From a virus, in IMG/VR virus record IMGVR_UViG_3300016486_001359, positions 3,575 through 47,775 of that record: 44,201 nucleotides of DNA; one strand, written 5' to 3'. A program made the position numbers and the translations under genes. This document shows, one piece after another, positions 2,224-8,153 of this stretch; the stretch's first letter is position 1, and each line of letters starts with the position of its first letter. The notes under the pieces were generated by a model. That model was not told where the DNA came from and did no database searches. It saw only the letters and a program-made list of their open reading frames with translations.

Positions 2224-2307
2224 CGTTTTGCAGCATAGGGTTGCAGAACGCTGGGTTTCTCGCAAAGCCCGTAAATGTACCAAAACGCCTAACATGACGG
2301 GTAAATA

Positions 2308-2655
2308 GTGACAACCGAAGATCTCAAAACAAAAGCAGCGAATTGGATTGCCGAGCAGTCACCGAAAGCCGTCGACTGGATGACGGGTCAATCGTTCAAT
2401 AATGTTTTGTTGTTGTGCATTTTGGTCGCTGGCGGCTGGGCGATTCACTTTGCAATTACAGACGCAATTCCAAAACATATCCGCGAAATACAAGATGGTT
2501 ACAAGACCTTGCAAGAACAACATATACAAGAGCGAGAGACAATTCGAAATCAGTTCGATCTGTGGCTGGAACGGATCATTGATAAGAAAATAGGAAATTC
2601 TAATACCTATAAATCGGGTTACTACATACTGAAACAAACTTCTTACAAGCTTTGA
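2308..2655 (+). CDS. single-pass membrane protein with C-terminal coiled coil
   Basis: 115 aa with a GTG start at 2308. One hydrophobic segment at about residues 30-50 (NNVLLLCILVAGGWAIHFAI) is followed by a charged helical stretch (HIREIQDGYKTLQEQHIQER) likely to form a coiled coil. Topology and size would fit a holin-type or spanin-like accessory protein. It is first in a run of membrane or secreted products (2308-5086). No family is recognised; lysis involvement is inferred from context only. Confidence 0.5.
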   Translation: MTTEDLKTKAANWIAEQSPKAVDWMTGQSFNNVLLLCILVAGGWAIHFAITDAIPKHIREIQDGYKTLQEQHIQERETIRNQFDLWLERIIDKKIGNSNTYKSGYYILKQTSYKL

Positions 2656-2665
2656 AAAAAACAAC

Positions 2666-3106
2666 ATGAACCAATCAAAAAGTCTAGTCAAACTGTTCGT
2701 AGGTATGATCTTTTTTGGGATCAGTCTCTTCGTATTCAATGGCTCTGGGTTATTTGTCGTAGACAACGGGATGCTTGGTGCTACCAATTTGGAAATAGCC
2801 AAACGTGTTTTTGAGGTTCTTTTGTCGGTTATGACAGCTTTGTTGGGCACGGGTTTGTTCTCTAAACTACCGTGGATGAAAACTTTGATTGATGTGCTTA
2901 CACCATTTTTATCAAAAGACAGATCGCCTGAAGCAACAAAAGAAAAAGACTTGATGCGTATGTTGCAATACGCTATCTTTAGTAAAAATGTCAATTTGAC
3001 TATTATGCTTTGTGAGGAAGCCGCCGGGGAACGTTATATTAGCGGACCCGAACAAGAGCCAGAAGCCGCCACAACACCAAAACCAAAAGGTTTTCCCCTC
3101 AAATGA
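2666..3106 (+). CDS. two-pass membrane protein, holin candidate
   Basis: 146 aa with hydrophobic segments at about 7-32 (KLFVGMIFFGISLFVFNGSG) and 44-64 (VFEVLLSVMTALLGTGLF), then a charged C-terminus ending in a Pro/Lys-rich tail. Two transmembrane helices with a charged tail are common in class II holins, but no signature proves it. Its stop overlaps the next start (ATGA at 3103), so the two are co-translated. Confidence 0.5.
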   Translation: MNQSKSLVKLFVGMIFFGISLFVFNGSGLFVVDNGMLGATNLEIAKRVFEVLLSVMTALLGTGLFSKLPWMKTLIDVLTPFLSKDRSPEATKEKDLMRMLQYAIFSKNVNLTIMLCEEAAGERYISGPEQEPEAATTPKPKGFPLK

Positions 3107-3642
3107 GATCACCGTACCGAGAAACCACCCGAGAAATAGCTGAAGATACAAGACCTAAGCATTACAATAGACTTTGGTTTCAATTTGTTGTTTTGCTTGT
3201 GGTGTTGGCTTTCGGCTGGTTTTTGGGGCGGTCTGGAAAAGAAAAAGAGATAGACTACATTGATGATAACGATATCGTTATTGTTGACCCTATTGACCCT
3301 ATTGACCCTATTGATGACAAGAAAGAAAAGATCGATCTAAAAGATTCCTATCTTGTCCGAGTTTACGAAACCGAAGCCAGTGAAACACCAGTTTGGTTTA
3401 TCGAATTGCTTGACGCGGATTCTCTTTGGTTTGATTTCATCAAAGCAAACGGAATGCGTTTGTTTACATTTGATCCAGATTCAGACAATCAAGCCGAAAG
3501 CTTTGTTAACGCAGCCAAACAAAAAAACATTGACCCGCCTTTCTTGATTCACGCAAAAGGTGGTAAAGTTTTAAGTGTTACTGCGTTTGAAGAATCGCTA
3601 ACTGTTGAAAAAATCAAGAAACTTGTAGAAAGCCTCAAATAA
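3103..3642 (+). CDS. membrane-anchored protein with PID repeat and thioredoxin-like C-terminal region
   Basis: 179 aa. A transmembrane helix at about 26-44 (FQFVVLLVVLAFGWFLG) is followed by an acidic linker with a tandem PIDPIDPID repeat. The globular domain looks like a thioredoxin-type alpha/beta fold: ETPVWFIELLDADSLWF, a middle helix, then FLIHAKGGKVLSVTAF with the usual strand-turn-strand near a cis-Pro-like PP. No CxxC is present, so redox activity is not expected. Most likely an envelope-facing protein of unknown job beside the peptidase. Confidence 0.5.
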   Translation: MRSPYRETTREIAEDTRPKHYNRLWFQFVVLLVVLAFGWFLGRSGKEKEIDYIDDNDIVIVDPIDPIDPIDDKKEKIDLKDSYLVRVYETEASETPVWFIELLDADSLWFDFIKANGMRLFTFDPDSDNQAESFVNAAKQKNIDPPFLIHAKGGKVLSVTAFEESLTVEKIKKLVESLK

Positions 3643-3644
3643 TT

Positions 3645-4523
3645 ATGCCAGTAGACGAATTCAAATTCCGACATGGTGATAGTTTTGTTTACACTGGTAT
3701 GAAAACACCAGAAACAAGACCTTTGTCTTTTACGCCTTTCCCTGAACAAAAAATTCGGGGTTTTGACGAAATCATTGATATTCTTGATAATCCCAACAGG
3801 GTGCCAGCTAGAATGCGGTTTGGTCAAGATCGTTTGATTAACCAAGGCAATCGTAGTTCTTGCAACGCTTACATGGCTGCCGCTATGTGGATGCGGCAAA
3901 ATTACATGGAAACAGGAACTTGGGTTGATGTTTCACCTGAGTTTATCTACATGCACATTAACGGGGGTAGAGATCAGGGTTCGATGTTGGACGATGGTAT
4001 GATGTTCATAACCGATACAGGTATTGCCAGATTGGTTGTTGACGGCAAAAGGTTGATTCCTTACGGGGCTTATCGGAAGGATAAAATTCCGATGGAGCAG
4101 TTGCGGTTTGCTTCACAGGACGCTGCCGGGCAGCGAGCCGGGGAGTGCTACCTGATGCCTAATTCCAGTCCCGAAAAATGCTGGGCGGCTCTCTTGTCCT
4201 GTTTGGCTGGCCGAGGTCAGGTTGGCCTTGCTGTTCATGTTGGCAACAACTACATGAACTCTGGTAAAATTGCAGGATTCGATAGAGGTAATGGGAATCA
4301 TGCAATTGCGGGTGACGACATTATCCCATTGACAACTAACCCGCGAGGTATTGAAGATCTGGGTATCGATTCACCTCAATCGTGGAATCCCAGTTTTGCC
4401 GATAATGGTCGAACCATTATCACAATTAAGCACATTGCTCAAACATGTAGAGTTCACGGATTGTATGGGTTGCGGTCAGTACTGACTAACCCTTTGGATG
4501 TTTCTCAAACAAGGATTAAGTAG
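3645..4523 (+). CDS. papain-like (C1-type) cysteine peptidase
   Basis: 292 aa with the papain-family order of active-site motifs. These are LINQGNRSSCNAYMAAAMW with oxyanion Gln67 and nucleophile Cys73, then GNGNHAIAGDD with His219, then SPQSWNPSFADNG at 243-255, which aligns with the NSWG-x-x-WG-x-NG motif. The catalytic Asn position appears to be Gln245, an unusual substitution. There is no signal peptide. It could cleave peptide cross-links as an unorthodox endolysin, process virion proteins, or act on host proteins. It lies between membrane-protein genes and a secreted protein, and I see no conventional lysozyme or amidase in the window. The family call is firm; the role is inference. Confidence 0.75.
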   Translation: MPVDEFKFRHGDSFVYTGMKTPETRPLSFTPFPEQKIRGFDEIIDILDNPNRVPARMRFGQDRLINQGNRSSCNAYMAAAMWMRQNYMETGTWVDVSPEFIYMHINGGRDQGSMLDDGMMFITDTGIARLVVDGKRLIPYGAYRKDKIPMEQLRFASQDAAGQRAGECYLMPNSSPEKCWAALLSCLAGRGQVGLAVHVGNNYMNSGKIAGFDRGNGNHAIAGDDIIPLTTNPRGIEDLGIDSPQSWNPSFADNGRTIITIKHIAQTCRVHGLYGLRSVLTNPLDVSQTRIK

Positions 4524-5090: not shown

Positions 5091-5585
5091 ATGAGTTCGC
5101 AAGAAATGACTCAAGAGGATAAAGTAGAGGCAATAGCTTGGCGATATGCTGAGGAGCTTCTACGAAATCCTTGCGACACATTCAAAGCAGCTATGATTGT
5201 TACGTTTAGTGACACCATAGCTGCATTGCGTTTATCTCAAGAGTTGCAATATTCAAGCAAAATTGCAAGGATGCAACAACACTTGATTAAAGAGTTAGGG
5301 GAGGAGGCGTTCCTTCCGACTAAAGAAACAATGGTTTCGGAAGTCTACGCCAGAGCTAGGAGATCCACAGAAGACGATGCCTACGTCAAAATGATGGCAT
5401 TGGTTTTCGATGTTCGCGGCATGAGTTCAAAATCTGGGTCTGTAGTTGTGAATGATAACAGCACAACAAATAACCGTATCATGCAAATACCTGTTCTGAT
5501 GAACAGAGAGGGTTCCCCGGCAAACGAACAGGAATGGGAAGAACAACTCATTGTACAACAAGAAAAGTTAACCAATGACTTCTAG
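5091..5585 (+). CDS. terS: terminase small subunit
   Basis: 164 aa from the ATG at 5091, preceded by GGAGAGAG; the frame is open from 5043, but that part overlaps the previous gene. The protein is mainly helical. YAEELLRNPCDTFKAAMIVTF and a later RARRSTEDDAYVKMMALVFDVRGM resemble the DNA-binding and oligomerisation regions of small terminases. The C-terminus is acidic and polar. Its place directly before and overlapping the large subunit (11 bp) is the strongest evidence. The family is inferred from position and general features. Confidence 0.65.
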   Translation: MSSQEMTQEDKVEAIAWRYAEELLRNPCDTFKAAMIVTFSDTIAALRLSQELQYSSKIARMQQHLIKELGEEAFLPTKETMVSEVYARARRSTEDDAYVKMMALVFDVRGMSSKSGSVVVNDNSTTNNRIMQIPVLMNREGSPANEQEWEEQLIVQQEKLTNDF

Positions 5586-6054
5586 AACTTGGAGTTTGCC
5601 AGATCAAACGCCTCTTCCAATTCGGGAATCAAAATCATTTGATGAGGTTATCCAAGGTATTCCGTTGGGTGACGGAACTGGATACTACACAAAGTACGAA
5701 AAAGAAGCGGAGATCAAGTCTACCTACGTAGTGTGGGAACCTATCCCCGGATCGTCTCAAGAGTTTGCTATCGCAACAAGAGCGCACCACACGCTAATGC
5801 ACGGTGCTCGCGGTCCCGGTAAGACTTTGACCCAGTTAATGCGTTTTCGTTCTAAAGTGGGGCTTGGTTACGGTGCTTATTGGAGAGGCGTTATTTTTGA
5901 CAGAGAATTCAAAAACCTTGGCGACCTAGTTGCGCAAAGCAACAGATTTTTTCCGAAGTTCGAAGATGGTTGTAGATGGCTGAAATCGGCCACCGAGTAC
6001 AAATGGGTTTGGCCAACAGGTGAAGAACTTCTTTTTCGCCATGTTAAAAAATAG
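5575..6054 (+). CDS. terL: terminase large subunit, N-terminal ATPase fragment (frame stops at TAG)
   Basis: 159 aa. Walker A is HGARGPGKTLTQLM at residues 76-89, typical of TerL packaging ATPases. The frame ends at TAG 6052-6054. TerL homology continues at once in the -1 frame (EDYQTFHGHEYPFIGWNELT), so this is the front part of one gene. The break lies at GTT AAA AAA TAG. One extra A in the run, or a -1 slip there, joins the two parts into a product of about 558 aa after intein removal, a normal TerL length. See the separate entries for the break and the intein. Confidence 0.85.
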   Translation: MTSRTWSLPDQTPLPIRESKSFDEVIQGIPLGDGTGYYTKYEKEAEIKSTYVVWEPIPGSSQEFAIATRAHHTLMHGARGPGKTLTQLMRFRSKVGLGYGAYWRGVIFDREFKNLGDLVAQSNRFFPKFEDGCRWLKSATEYKWVWPTGEELLFRHVKK

Positions 6055-6059
6055 AAGAC
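6040..6059 (+). other. -1 frame change in terL at an A6 run
   Basis: Zero-frame codons are CAT GTT AAA AAA TAG. Reading from 6051 in the -1 frame gives ATA GAA GAC TAT and continues TerL without a stop. The heptamer T AAA AAA is not a good X XXY YYZ slippery site, and I see only a weak GGG/CCC hairpin downstream. The options are a missing A in the assembly (A6 for A7), a genuine lesion, or an unconventional programmed frameshift. Simple amber read-through is excluded because the zero frame after TAG is not TerL. Confidence 0.8.
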
Positions 6060-8153
6060 TATCAAACCTTTCATGGGCACGAATACCCGTTTATTGGATG
6101 GAATGAGTTAACGAAACAACCAACCGCTGAGATTTACGACAAATTTATGTCAGTGAATCGATGTTCTTTTCTACCAGAGAAACACACACCAGTTATCTTG
6201 GTTAACGGTAAACCTAGATATGACACTTTGGATGGCAAACCTTTACCGGCAATCACACTAGAAGTGTTTTCAACCACAAATCCGGATGGTCCGGGTCACA
6301 ATTGGGTCAAAAGACGATTCATTGATGTTGCCAGAAATGGTGAGATTTTTAGAAAAACAGTCAAGTTTTTTGATAATTTGGCGGGTGAAGAAATTGTAGT
6401 TGAAAGAACACAGGTTGCTATTTTTGGTTCGTTTTTTGAAAACCCTTATCTAGACCCTATTTATCGAGCGGGTTTGATTGAATCTTGTTCCAACAATCCT
6501 AATTTGCACGCAGCTTGGATTGAAGGTCGTTGGGATGTTAGTAGCGGTGGTGCAATTGACGATTTATGGAACAGCGCCAAACACATTGTTCCACGATTCC
6601 AAATACCAGCGAATTGGAAAATAGATCGATCGTTTGACTGGGGATCTACTCACCCGTTCTCTACAGTATGGTGGGCTGAGGCGAACGGGGAAGAACTCAC
6701 TCTTTCTGATGGCTCAAAATGGTGCCCTTACCCCGGTTCGTTGTTTGCAATTGAAGAAGATTACGGTACTGAGGGTTTTCACACAAACAAAGGTTTGAAA
6801 CTCTCAGCAAAGGACGTAGCTCTGCGGATTACCAAAAAAGAAGAAACACTAAAGTCTGAACAGTGGATCAAATCAAAAGTTCAGGCTGGTCCTGCCGATA
6901 ATCAAATTCGCAACGTCAACGAATCAGATGTAGATACCATTGAGTCTAAAATGGCAGATTTGGGTATTTATTGGACGAACTCCGATAAATCGCCGGGTTC
7001 AAGAGTTATTGGTTTGCAGCTGTTGCGAGACCGCTTGCAGGCTTCTGTTTTGGGTGAAGGTCCGGGTATTTATTTCATGCGAAATTGTTTACAGTGCATT
7101 GAACTTTTACCACCTTTACCTAGAGATCCAGAAAAAAAGGACGATGTTGACTGTTGGGTGCAAGACACCTTAATTTCTACACCTAAAGGTGAAGTTCCTA
7201 TCCAAAGGATTGAGGTCGGGGATTACGTTGATACACCTATTGGCCCAAGAAGAGTAACCAAAAGTTATATTTCCGGTAAAAGTCAAACGGTCGTTATTCG
7301 CACGAACAACGGTTCAATCTCAGAAGGCACAAAAGATCACAAACTTTTCGCTGAAGGGTATGGACTTCTGCCTCTGTGTGAGTTAAAACCCTCTTTTCTT
7401 CTGTCTGGGAAAAGGGAAACATGCCAAAATATCTTGAGTACGATGGAGTCTTCTACACTTGCTGGGACGGGCGGGATTACTACTCTCCGAACGGCACAAT
7501 TCTTAGTCACGGGGGAACTAGCCTGCATCGGCAAGTTTGGATTGATAACAACGGACCAATACCTGAAGGATATCATATCCACCACGTTGACCACAATACA
7601 GACAACAATTGCATTGAAAACTTACAAATGGTCAATGCTTCGGATCACGCTAGATACCATTTGGTTGAACGTCATAAATCTGGTGAACTTGCGAAGTCTC
7701 GCAATGTTTGGATTGAAAACGGGGGACGGGAAACACTTCGCGAAAATGCTGAGAAGATGCGTGAAAACACACCCTACCGTGAATTTACGTGCTTTGATTG
7801 TGCTTGCGAAGTTAGAACAAAACACCCGTCTCAAAAACGATGCGAAGAATGCGCAGAGAAAAGAAATGCAAAAGGCTACAAGTCAAAAGCTTGCCCTGTT
7901 TGCGGAAAAGAGTTCTTGTACAAAACACACTCAACAAAACAAGTCAAGTCTTGTAGTGCAAAGTGTGGATGGGTTTTGCGAAAACAAGCTAGTCTACAAC
8001 TTGACGGTTGAGCAAGCAGGTTTGTATTATGCAAATGGCATGTTGTCTTCAAATACAGAGGCCGAGGATCACCTTTACGATGCTGTTAGATACCGTGTTT
8101 TACGCGGATCAAACAAGTGGGCAATTAAAATCAAAACAAATTGGATTAGGTAA
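6051..8153 (+). CDS. terL: terminase large subunit, C-terminal part with nuclease domain and intein
   Basis: About 700 codons in the -1 frame relative to 5575-6054; the first ATG in this frame is at 6147. Walker B-like FIGWNELT lies just after the frame break. The RNase H-type nuclease follows, with FDWGSTHPFSTVWW and the last motif split as DVD then TEAEDHLYDAVRYRVL. An intein (7152-8054) sits exactly between DVD and TEAEDH. Removing it restores the usual nuclease motif III. The nuclease cuts concatemers and the ATPase pumps DNA through the portal encoded next door. Confidence 0.85.
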   Translation: MEDYQTFHGHEYPFIGWNELTKQPTAEIYDKFMSVNRCSFLPEKHTPVILVNGKPRYDTLDGKPLPAITLEVFSTTNPDGPGHNWVKRRFIDVARNGEIFRKTVKFFDNLAGEEIVVERTQVAIFGSFFENPYLDPIYRAGLIESCSNNPNLHAAWIEGRWDVSSGGAIDDLWNSAKHIVPRFQIPANWKIDRSFDWGSTHPFSTVWWAEANGEELTLSDGSKWCPYPGSLFAIEEDYGTEGFHTNKGLKLSAKDVALRITKKEETLKSEQWIKSKVQAGPADNQIRNVNESDVDTIESKMADLGIYWTNSDKSPGSRVIGLQLLRDRLQASVLGEGPGIYFMRNCLQCIELLPPLPRDPEKKDDVDCWVQDTLISTPKGEVPIQRIEVGDYVDTPIGPRRVTKSYISGKSQTVVIRTNNGSISEGTKDHKLFAEGYGLLPLCELKPSFLLSGKRETCQNILSTMESSTLAGTGGITTLRTAQFLVTGELACIGKFGLITTDQYLKDIISTTLTTIQTTIALKTYKWSMLRITLDTIWLNVINLVNLRSLAMFGLKTGDGKHFAKMLRRCVKTHPTVNLRALIVLAKLEQNTRLKNDAKNAQRKEMQKATSQKLALFAEKSSCTKHTQQNKSSLVVQSVDGFCENKLVYNLTVEQAGLYYANGMLSSNTEAEDHLYDAVRYRVLRGSNKWAIKIKTNWIR
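7152..8054 (+). other. intein (Hint domain) in TerL nuclease motif
   Basis: 301 codons, from Cys (7152-7154) to Asn (8052-8054), followed by Thr+1. Block A is CWVQDTLISTPKGEVPIQRI, and IEVGDYVDTPIGPRRV follows it. Block B has the TxxH motif in GTKDHKLFAEGYG. Blocks F/G are VYNLTVEQAGLYYANGMLSSN. The penultimate residue is Ser rather than the common His. Only about 90 N-terminal and 25 C-terminal residues look like intein. The roughly 185 codons between are an open but low-complexity Ser/Thr/Lys/Leu-rich translation of a region whose real sense is the HNH gene in another frame. Confidence 0.85.
7421..8011 (+). CDS. HNH homing endonuclease nested out of frame inside the terL intein
   Basis: 196 aa with its own ATG and a ribosome-binding site (AAAGGGAAAC directly before). 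Its frame is -1 to the intein frame. The catalytic region is LHRQVWIDNNGPIPEGYHIH, then HVDHNTDNNCIENLQMV and NASDHARYH, an HNH_3-like nuclease. Behind it are two cysteine clusters, FTCFDCACEV with RCEECAEKR, and ACPVCGKEF with CSAKCG, likely zinc modules for DNA recognition. An in-frame stop at 7379-7381 lies upstream, so it is not an extension of another ORF. It ends inside intein block F. The usual role is cutting intein-free terL alleles so that the element spreads. Confidence 0.85.
   Translation: MPKYLEYDGVFYTCWDGRDYYSPNGTILSHGGTSLHRQVWIDNNGPIPEGYHIHHVDHNTDNNCIENLQMVNASDHARYHLVERHKSGELAKSRNVWIENGGRETLRENAEKMRENTPYREFTCFDCACEVRTKHPSQKRCEECAEKRNAKGYKSKACPVCGKEFLYKTHSTKQVKSCSAKCGWVLRKQASLQLDG

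Follow-up and report, generated by a model that had tools for sequence, protein, structure and literature searches.

Out-of-frame HNH insertions have been described in phage methylase genes (the ShiLan domain and Pacc40), which are not inteins (Arsenault, Gosselin and Gogarten 2025, PMC11855218). Dassa et al. 2009 (PMC2677866; cited in PMC3229294) reportedly described fractured genes, in which split inteins accompany a homing endonuclease encoded on its own; that endonuclease is reported to be of a Vsr-like family. The gp41-1 and NrdJ-1 inteins belong to this fractured-gene set. The TerL inteins of mycobacteriophages lie in the ATPase domain, and the two tested for cleavage have an in-frame LAGLIDADG endonuclease (Kelley et al. 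2016, PMC5050341). No published out-of-frame endonuclease inside an intein was found in the literature we searched, with most subscription papers and bioRxiv outside our reach; apart from ShiLan, the same search returned just a genome announcement in which a methylase of that kind is reported. Within that literature, an out-of-frame HNH has precedents where no intein is involved, and its combination with an intein is apparently undescribed.

The window analyzed here is a stretch of viral DNA of 44,201 nucleotides (positions 3,575 to 47,775 of IMG/VR record IMGVR_UViG_3300016486_001359, which has 47,775 bases), in which the terminase large subunit gene, terL, is interrupted. The features of the locus are as follows.

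5575..6054, + strand: N-terminal part of terL (ATPase end); the frame stops at 6054 in the window via a one-base homopolymer-length difference
6147..7151, + strand: rest of the terL N-extein, up to ...DDVD; phrog_2 terminase large subunit, E 5e-15; the true frame runs on from the upstream part
7152..8054, + strand: intein of 301 aa, Cys1 to Asn301, with Thr at +1; supported by Pfam/NCBIfam matches, AlphaFold and Foldseek
7152..7421, + strand: N-terminal splicing half of the intein (blocks A and B; TxxH at residues 60-63); AlphaFold pLDDT ~85-97
7412..7415, + strand: AAGG, Shine-Dalgarno-like, 5 nt ahead of the HNH ATG
7421..8011 (stop included), + strand: 196-aa HNH endonuclease ORF, offset by -1 from the intein frame; has an HNH_3 core and zinc-ribbon cysteines
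7422..7946, + strand: intein linker, residues 91-265: the HNH gene as read in the intein frame; modeled by AlphaFold with low confidence
7947..8054, + strand: C-terminal splicing half of the intein (blocks F and G: VYNLTVEQAGLYYANGMLSSN)
8009..8011, + strand: TGA that ends the HNH gene, contained in the Val-Glu codons (GTT GAG) of intein block F
8055..8153, + strand: terL C-extein, starting with Thr (+1) and bearing the DAxRY nuclease motif

An earlier note, made by reading the letters of the window, had placed an intein at 7152-8054 with splicing blocks at both ends and, within it, an HNH gene at 7421-8011, readable in the -1 frame only, with its own ATG and ribosome-binding site and with the intein frame open across about 196 codons. 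All of these claims held. The element is a class-1-like intein interrupting terL at the nuclease motif, whose splicing is inferred. Its frame runs from the Cys codon at 7152-7154 through the Asn codon at 8052-8054, followed by Thr, inside a terL ORF spanning 6147-8153, and it adjoins the TerL nuclease motif (DDVD, intein, then TEAEDHLYDAVRY). Both ends are matched at the right places by Hint_2 and Intein_splicing (Pfam) and by intein_Nterm/intein_Cterm (NCBIfam), mostly under the curated cut-offs. Cys1, T60..H63, Asn301 and Thr+1 are all present; among the relatives described below, Cys1 is found in 184 of 186, and the C-terminal Asn and a Cys, Ser or Thr at +1 in 130 of 130 each. The penultimate residue (in 8046-8054) is Ser, not His, as it is in 36 of 130 relatives, 81 of which have His. 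Ser in place of the usual penultimate His could slow splicing, although this His is inconsistently maintained among mycobacteriophage inteins (PMC5050341). AF modeling with AlphaFold returned a confident Hint domain built from the two ends, with pLDDT ~90 or more for most of residues 1-90 and 270-302, and a low-confidence linker (91-265). Foldseek and sequence profiles matched the intein to the DnaB, GyrA, RecA and gp41-1 inteins, and the closest solved relatives of the splicing domain include the gp41-1 and NrdJ-1 inteins.

The HNH protein matches HNH_3 with an E of 4e-13, and its AlphaFold model is confident (pLDDT 89). Residues H54, H55, N62, N63, N67, H76, C124, C127 and C141 are invariant among the HNH proteins. 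Among solved structures, I-HmuI comes closest, by profile (E 0.004) and, with a weak match, by fold (E 0.1). Over the 196 codons shared with the HNH gene, the intein frame contains no stops, against about 20 in the third frame. In 65 of 131 loci, codons for conserved block F residues (Tyr-Asp, Tyr-Asn or Val-Glu) supply the HNH stop.

Each of the described systems shares part of this layout. ShiLan and Pacc40 resemble the window in having an out-of-frame HNH, an insertion that is open in the frame of the host gene, precise insertion at conserved residues and a disjunct distribution. ShiLan, however, has no splicing domain and is thought to remain in the methylase, whereas the HNH of the window lies between recognizable intein halves in TerL; ShiLan also lacks a ribosome-binding site, and nested inteins are enriched for Shine-Dalgarno sites. 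In the fractured genes of Dassa et al., as in the window, splicing halves flank a separate endonuclease ORF, and a number of relatives of the window element show this same fracturing; still, the window and most of its relatives have one continuous intein ORF overlapping the HNH, in contrast to the split ORFs and Vsr-like nuclease of that set. Classical and mycobacteriophage TerL inteins likewise place an endonuclease between the halves of an active-site insertion in TerL, but theirs is an in-frame LAGLIDADG at ATPase-domain sites, while the window class has an out-of-frame HNH, mostly at the nuclease motif. The criterion of a classical large intein, an in-frame endonuclease, is unmet, the HNH being in the -1 frame in the window and in 131 of 140 distinct relatives. 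Finally, the HNH enzymes of I-HmuI-type group I introns share the HNH core and the arrangement of a free enzyme inside a self-removing element; their carrier is a group I intron and that of the window a protein intein, so the endonuclease gene must here overlap an open reading frame. In a separate contig (L008:3528-4520), an HNH ORF was observed out of frame within an apparent DNA methylase ORF, a ShiLan-like arrangement.

One objection to the layout is that indel artefacts conceal an HNH that is really in frame with the intein. One-base homopolymer differences are indeed seen in contigs of this population. The terL of the window is split into ORFs 5575-6054 and 6147-8153 by a break at 6040-6060, about 1.1 kb upstream of the intein, whereas IMG/VR contig 3300028228_000730 (L006/L009), an independent assembly that is otherwise identical, including across the intein, has an intact terL and differs there by one homopolymer base; whether the break is an assembly error or a real variant remains undecided. 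Another contig of the same population (L010) shows a one-base homopolymer difference within the N part of the intein, so single-base errors do occur in these assemblies. Against the artefact, two compensating errors would be required, repeated in ~169 independent clusters drawn from many samples and in phage genome records, and the HNH stop codon sits within block F. A relative with 73% nucleotide identity in terL (L007) keeps the layout with both frames open, its HNH and intein sharing 79% and 59% protein identity with those of the window. No one-base difference affects the relation between the intein and HNH frames in the window. Sequencing indels as the source of the out-of-frame layout are ruled out by the identical contig and the relatives, which leaves this explanation all but excluded. 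A search of INPHARED for phages near-identical to the window returned none.

The nested layout was also found in the records of Rhodobacteraceae phage LS06-2018-MD07, Tetrasphaera phage TJE1, Acinetobacter phage Highwayman and a gut phage contig, with intein and HNH at the same terL loci and the same offset. The first three are annotated with terL only and the gut phage contig is unannotated; common in phages, the layout has been missed because annotation reports only the terL frame. Viral and genome collections were scanned with HNH and intein alignments and then with HMMs of the HNH and of both splicing halves. The HMM survey recovered 140 distinct inteins with an internal HNH. In 131 of them the HNH was at -1 and the intein frame was open; one of the other nine was +1 and open, and the remainder were fractured or broken. 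An in-frame HNH was found in none of these 140 and, as the surveys were seeded from class members, this zero is valid for this HNH family only. An HNH-driven viral scan, which applies no selection for frame, assigned 49 of 53 loci to the main class (-1, open). A scan with the N half only, using a 6-row alignment of N splicing halves, yielded 67 inteins, comprising 56 with a -1 HNH, four mini-inteins, four judged LAGLIDADG-like by eye, one fractured-like and two others. The mini-inteins (L207, L226, L245 and L258; 126-148 aa) have the same splicing halves and no insert, a natural hint, and no more, that the linker may be dispensable for splicing.

Pooled, the surveys contain at least 186 inteins with a -1 HNH and an open intein frame, forming 169 clusters at 90% nucleotide identity, mostly in viral sequences and mainly in terL. 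Eight further inteins with a divergent C-terminal half also have a -1 HNH, and two more are +1. Each scan took at most 80 loci, so the counts are lower bounds; they include a few near-duplicates, and some contigs may hold errors. As the layout recurs in well above 100 other, mostly viral, sequences, it looks real and widespread. Insertion sites span Walker B-like and nuclease motifs, the majority being at D(A/S)xRY. When ten host ORFs with unusual sites were checked against Pfam, four were TerL (Terminase_6 or Terminase_3), and the others gave intein matches only. The collection adds ~170 inteins for study, some in named phages, and is a warning for gene callers.

To assess whether the open overlap could be a matter of chance, stops in the intein frame were compared with the number expected under synonymous-codon shuffling within each HNH gene. 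Across 131 loci and 25,304 overlapping codons, none was observed against 325 expected (2.5 per locus), which is more openness than chance would give, while the third frame of the same loci contains 2,365 stops (18 per locus). For the HNH gene of the window, represented by its identical copy in L006, ~3.5% of shuffles keep the intein frame open, and where an HNH gene lies outside an open intein, the corresponding frame holds 2-11 stops. A probable reason for the preference for -1 is that few stops need removal (~2.5 per gene versus ~18 for the third frame), and the loss of the HNH stop codon that an in-frame fusion would require is a probable contributor to this preference. How inteins gain endonucleases thereby becomes testable, as out-of-frame HNH entry needs few stops removed, and so does the constancy of the frame.

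The two frames differ in constraint. The HNH frame is under purifying selection, with dN/dS of ~0.1-0.4 where estimable (83 pairs) and 0.18 between the window copy and L007; changes at HNH codon positions 1, 2 and 3 number 3,747, 3,100 and 6,258, falling mostly at the third. In the overlapped intein frame of the same stretch, pN is about equal to pS, which rules out a linker selected as protein. The HNH is therefore the selected product, and the linker is merely kept open. This offers a sizeable recurring set of overlapping genes with one frame selected and the other merely open, useful for work on overlap evolution. The correlation between intein distances and HNH distances is weak (rho 0.18), which could reflect either swapping of partners or saturation of the signal. 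It could be argued that a nonfunctional HNH is merely carried along, making the element effectively a mini-intein with a long linker: certain HNH matches are short or split (e.g., L159 and L161), and mini-inteins of the same kind occur. The low dN/dS over the 83 pairs, including the window and its relative, and the invariance of the catalytic H and N residues and of the cysteines make this very unlikely. The earlier note had described the overlapped stretch as a filler loop, had read the locus as dual coding for a splicing protein and a separate HNH enzyme, had proposed a distinct mobile-element design, and had held that two compensating indels, or intein-frame stops in relatives, would refute it. 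Neither was encountered: no such indels were present in the independent assembly or the 73% relative, and in 131 relatives the intein frame has no stop over the HNH gene. The filler loop holds in a refined form, the overlapped part being unselected as protein and only stop-free; the dual coding is supported, with splicing and cleavage inferred; and the design holds as a recurrent layout.

As regards expression, an ATG in the HNH frame near the HNH N terminus is present in 91 of 130 loci, compared with 44 loci (maximum 56) when intein codons are replaced by synonymous ones. Shine-Dalgarno matches of 4 or more nt occur in 50% of loci against 30% (maximum 37%) expected, about half of the loci being without a recognizable one. 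Slippery heptamers are not enriched (18 loci versus 19.6 expected), and in 127 of 130 loci the HNH frame has a stop within the intein a short way upstream, so that the room for a shift is a median of only 15 codons. Taken together, these enrichments, the lack of slippery-site enrichment and the upstream stops favor internal initiation over frameshifting, the translation of the HNH itself being inferred. Programmed -1 ribosomal frameshifting, which would make the HNH as a fusion to the N-terminal splicing half, is consistent with the offset of -1 in nearly all cases, as that mechanism would require. It is nevertheless unlikely: in addition to the absent enrichment of slippery sites, for which we disfavor it, the abundance of HNH-frame ATGs and the closing stops, a few loci are +1, and fractured relatives have a free-standing HNH ORF.

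Evidence of mobility comes from empty sites. Once joined, the window exteins find an uninterrupted match in 489 phage records (>=80% of the joined length in one place). For Highwayman, 42 phage records match its terL, and the whole query including the intein is covered by Highwayman alone. Compared with Acba_21, the Highwayman intein is an exact, recent 981-bp insertion; all 15 differences in terL fall at -163..+12 nt of the insertion site, and none occurs outside terL in 394 nt upstream and 1,000 nt downstream (1,394 nt). The +1 residue is Leu in Acba_21 and Cys in Highwayman. In this relative, these differences are the footprint expected of break repair with co-conversion; mobility of the window element is inferred by analogy. 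As the insertion sits in the TerL of a phage genome, it either splices or is tolerated.

Two alternative functions can be considered here. The HNH might serve the phage, for instance in DNA packaging beside the terminase, instead of homing. Some phages are known to need an HNH protein by the terminase for packaging, a requirement also mentioned in PMC11855218, and the HNH of the window is located within terL. Against such a role, the HNH is wholly absent from close relatives, the insertion is precise with a co-conversion footprint, and the HNH is found within inteins at many different sites, like a mobility gene; we regard it as very unlikely. The second alternative is an unspliced, ShiLan-like insertion tolerated as a loop of TerL, with a published precedent in a methylase that conceals an HNH but has no splicing domain (PMC11855218). 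The element, however, has both splicing halves, the catalytic residues and the Hint fold, and the insertion falls in the nuclease active site of an essential protein, so that this explanation, too, has very little to recommend it.

The best explanation, and a likely one, is a mobile intein whose homing endonuclease is dual-coded in an overlapping frame, with splicing, HNH translation and cleavage inferred. Under this model, the two functions of a classical large intein would be split between two overlapping frames. Reading in the terL frame would give a Hint-fold splicing domain, its halves joined by a meaningless linker, and the intein would excise itself, restoring TerL. Reading in the -1 frame, from an internal start just past the N-terminal splicing half to a stop spelled by residues of the C-terminal half, would give a free HNH homing endonuclease. 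This enzyme would cut intein-free terL alleles, into which the intein would be copied by break repair with co-conversion of the flanks, as the footprint in the relative suggests. Self-splicing and homing are otherwise coupled by in-frame fusion or by free-standing genes; such a layout would add a third route.

In six loci (L080, L088, L174, L175, L177 and L179) the N half, HNH and C half are separate ORFs, and in two others (L013 and L176) the HNH is still spanned by an open C-half frame, and the N half alone lies in a different frame. The intein frame of the window is continuous, so it is neither fractured nor split. On the HNH tree the fractured cases are scattered, requiring 5 changes, at least 4 of them forced by well-supported branches; this suggests that loci have changed repeatedly between the nested and the fractured form, in a direction that is undetermined. 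With both forms in the same HNH family, the origin of split inteins becomes testable.

An intein with a fully open 392-aa sense frame was observed in a phage gene other than terL (L260:2983-4158, IMGVR_UViG_3300021509_000001). Its host ORF (2233-4290) resembles, by eye, a Mu F-like head protein, and the minus strand (3196-4242) encodes a zinc finger with a DUF559/Vsr-like endonuclease (E 5e-14). We read this sequence as an antisense counterpart of the nested intein/endonuclease layout. A bolder reading is that phage inteins widely use overlapping-frame coding, at least once antisense, for a splicing-independent homing endonuclease, and that nested inteins and fractured genes can turn into one another, with the nested form as one way in which split inteins arise in nature; taken as a joint claim, we lean towards it only slightly.

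Several further arrangements were observed. In one TerL (L016:1865-3655), six codons separate two inteins whose HNH genes are both out of frame, at -1 in the first and +1 in the second. The TerL of L007 has a second intein at the Walker A site (~1431-2400) with an apparently in-frame LAGLIDADG endonuclease. On a plasmid of Halobacterium sp. GSL-19 (NZ_CP070376.1:9865-10458), an HNH match lies inside a gene annotated only as a Hint domain-containing protein, possibly hinting at the nested layout in an archaeal element.
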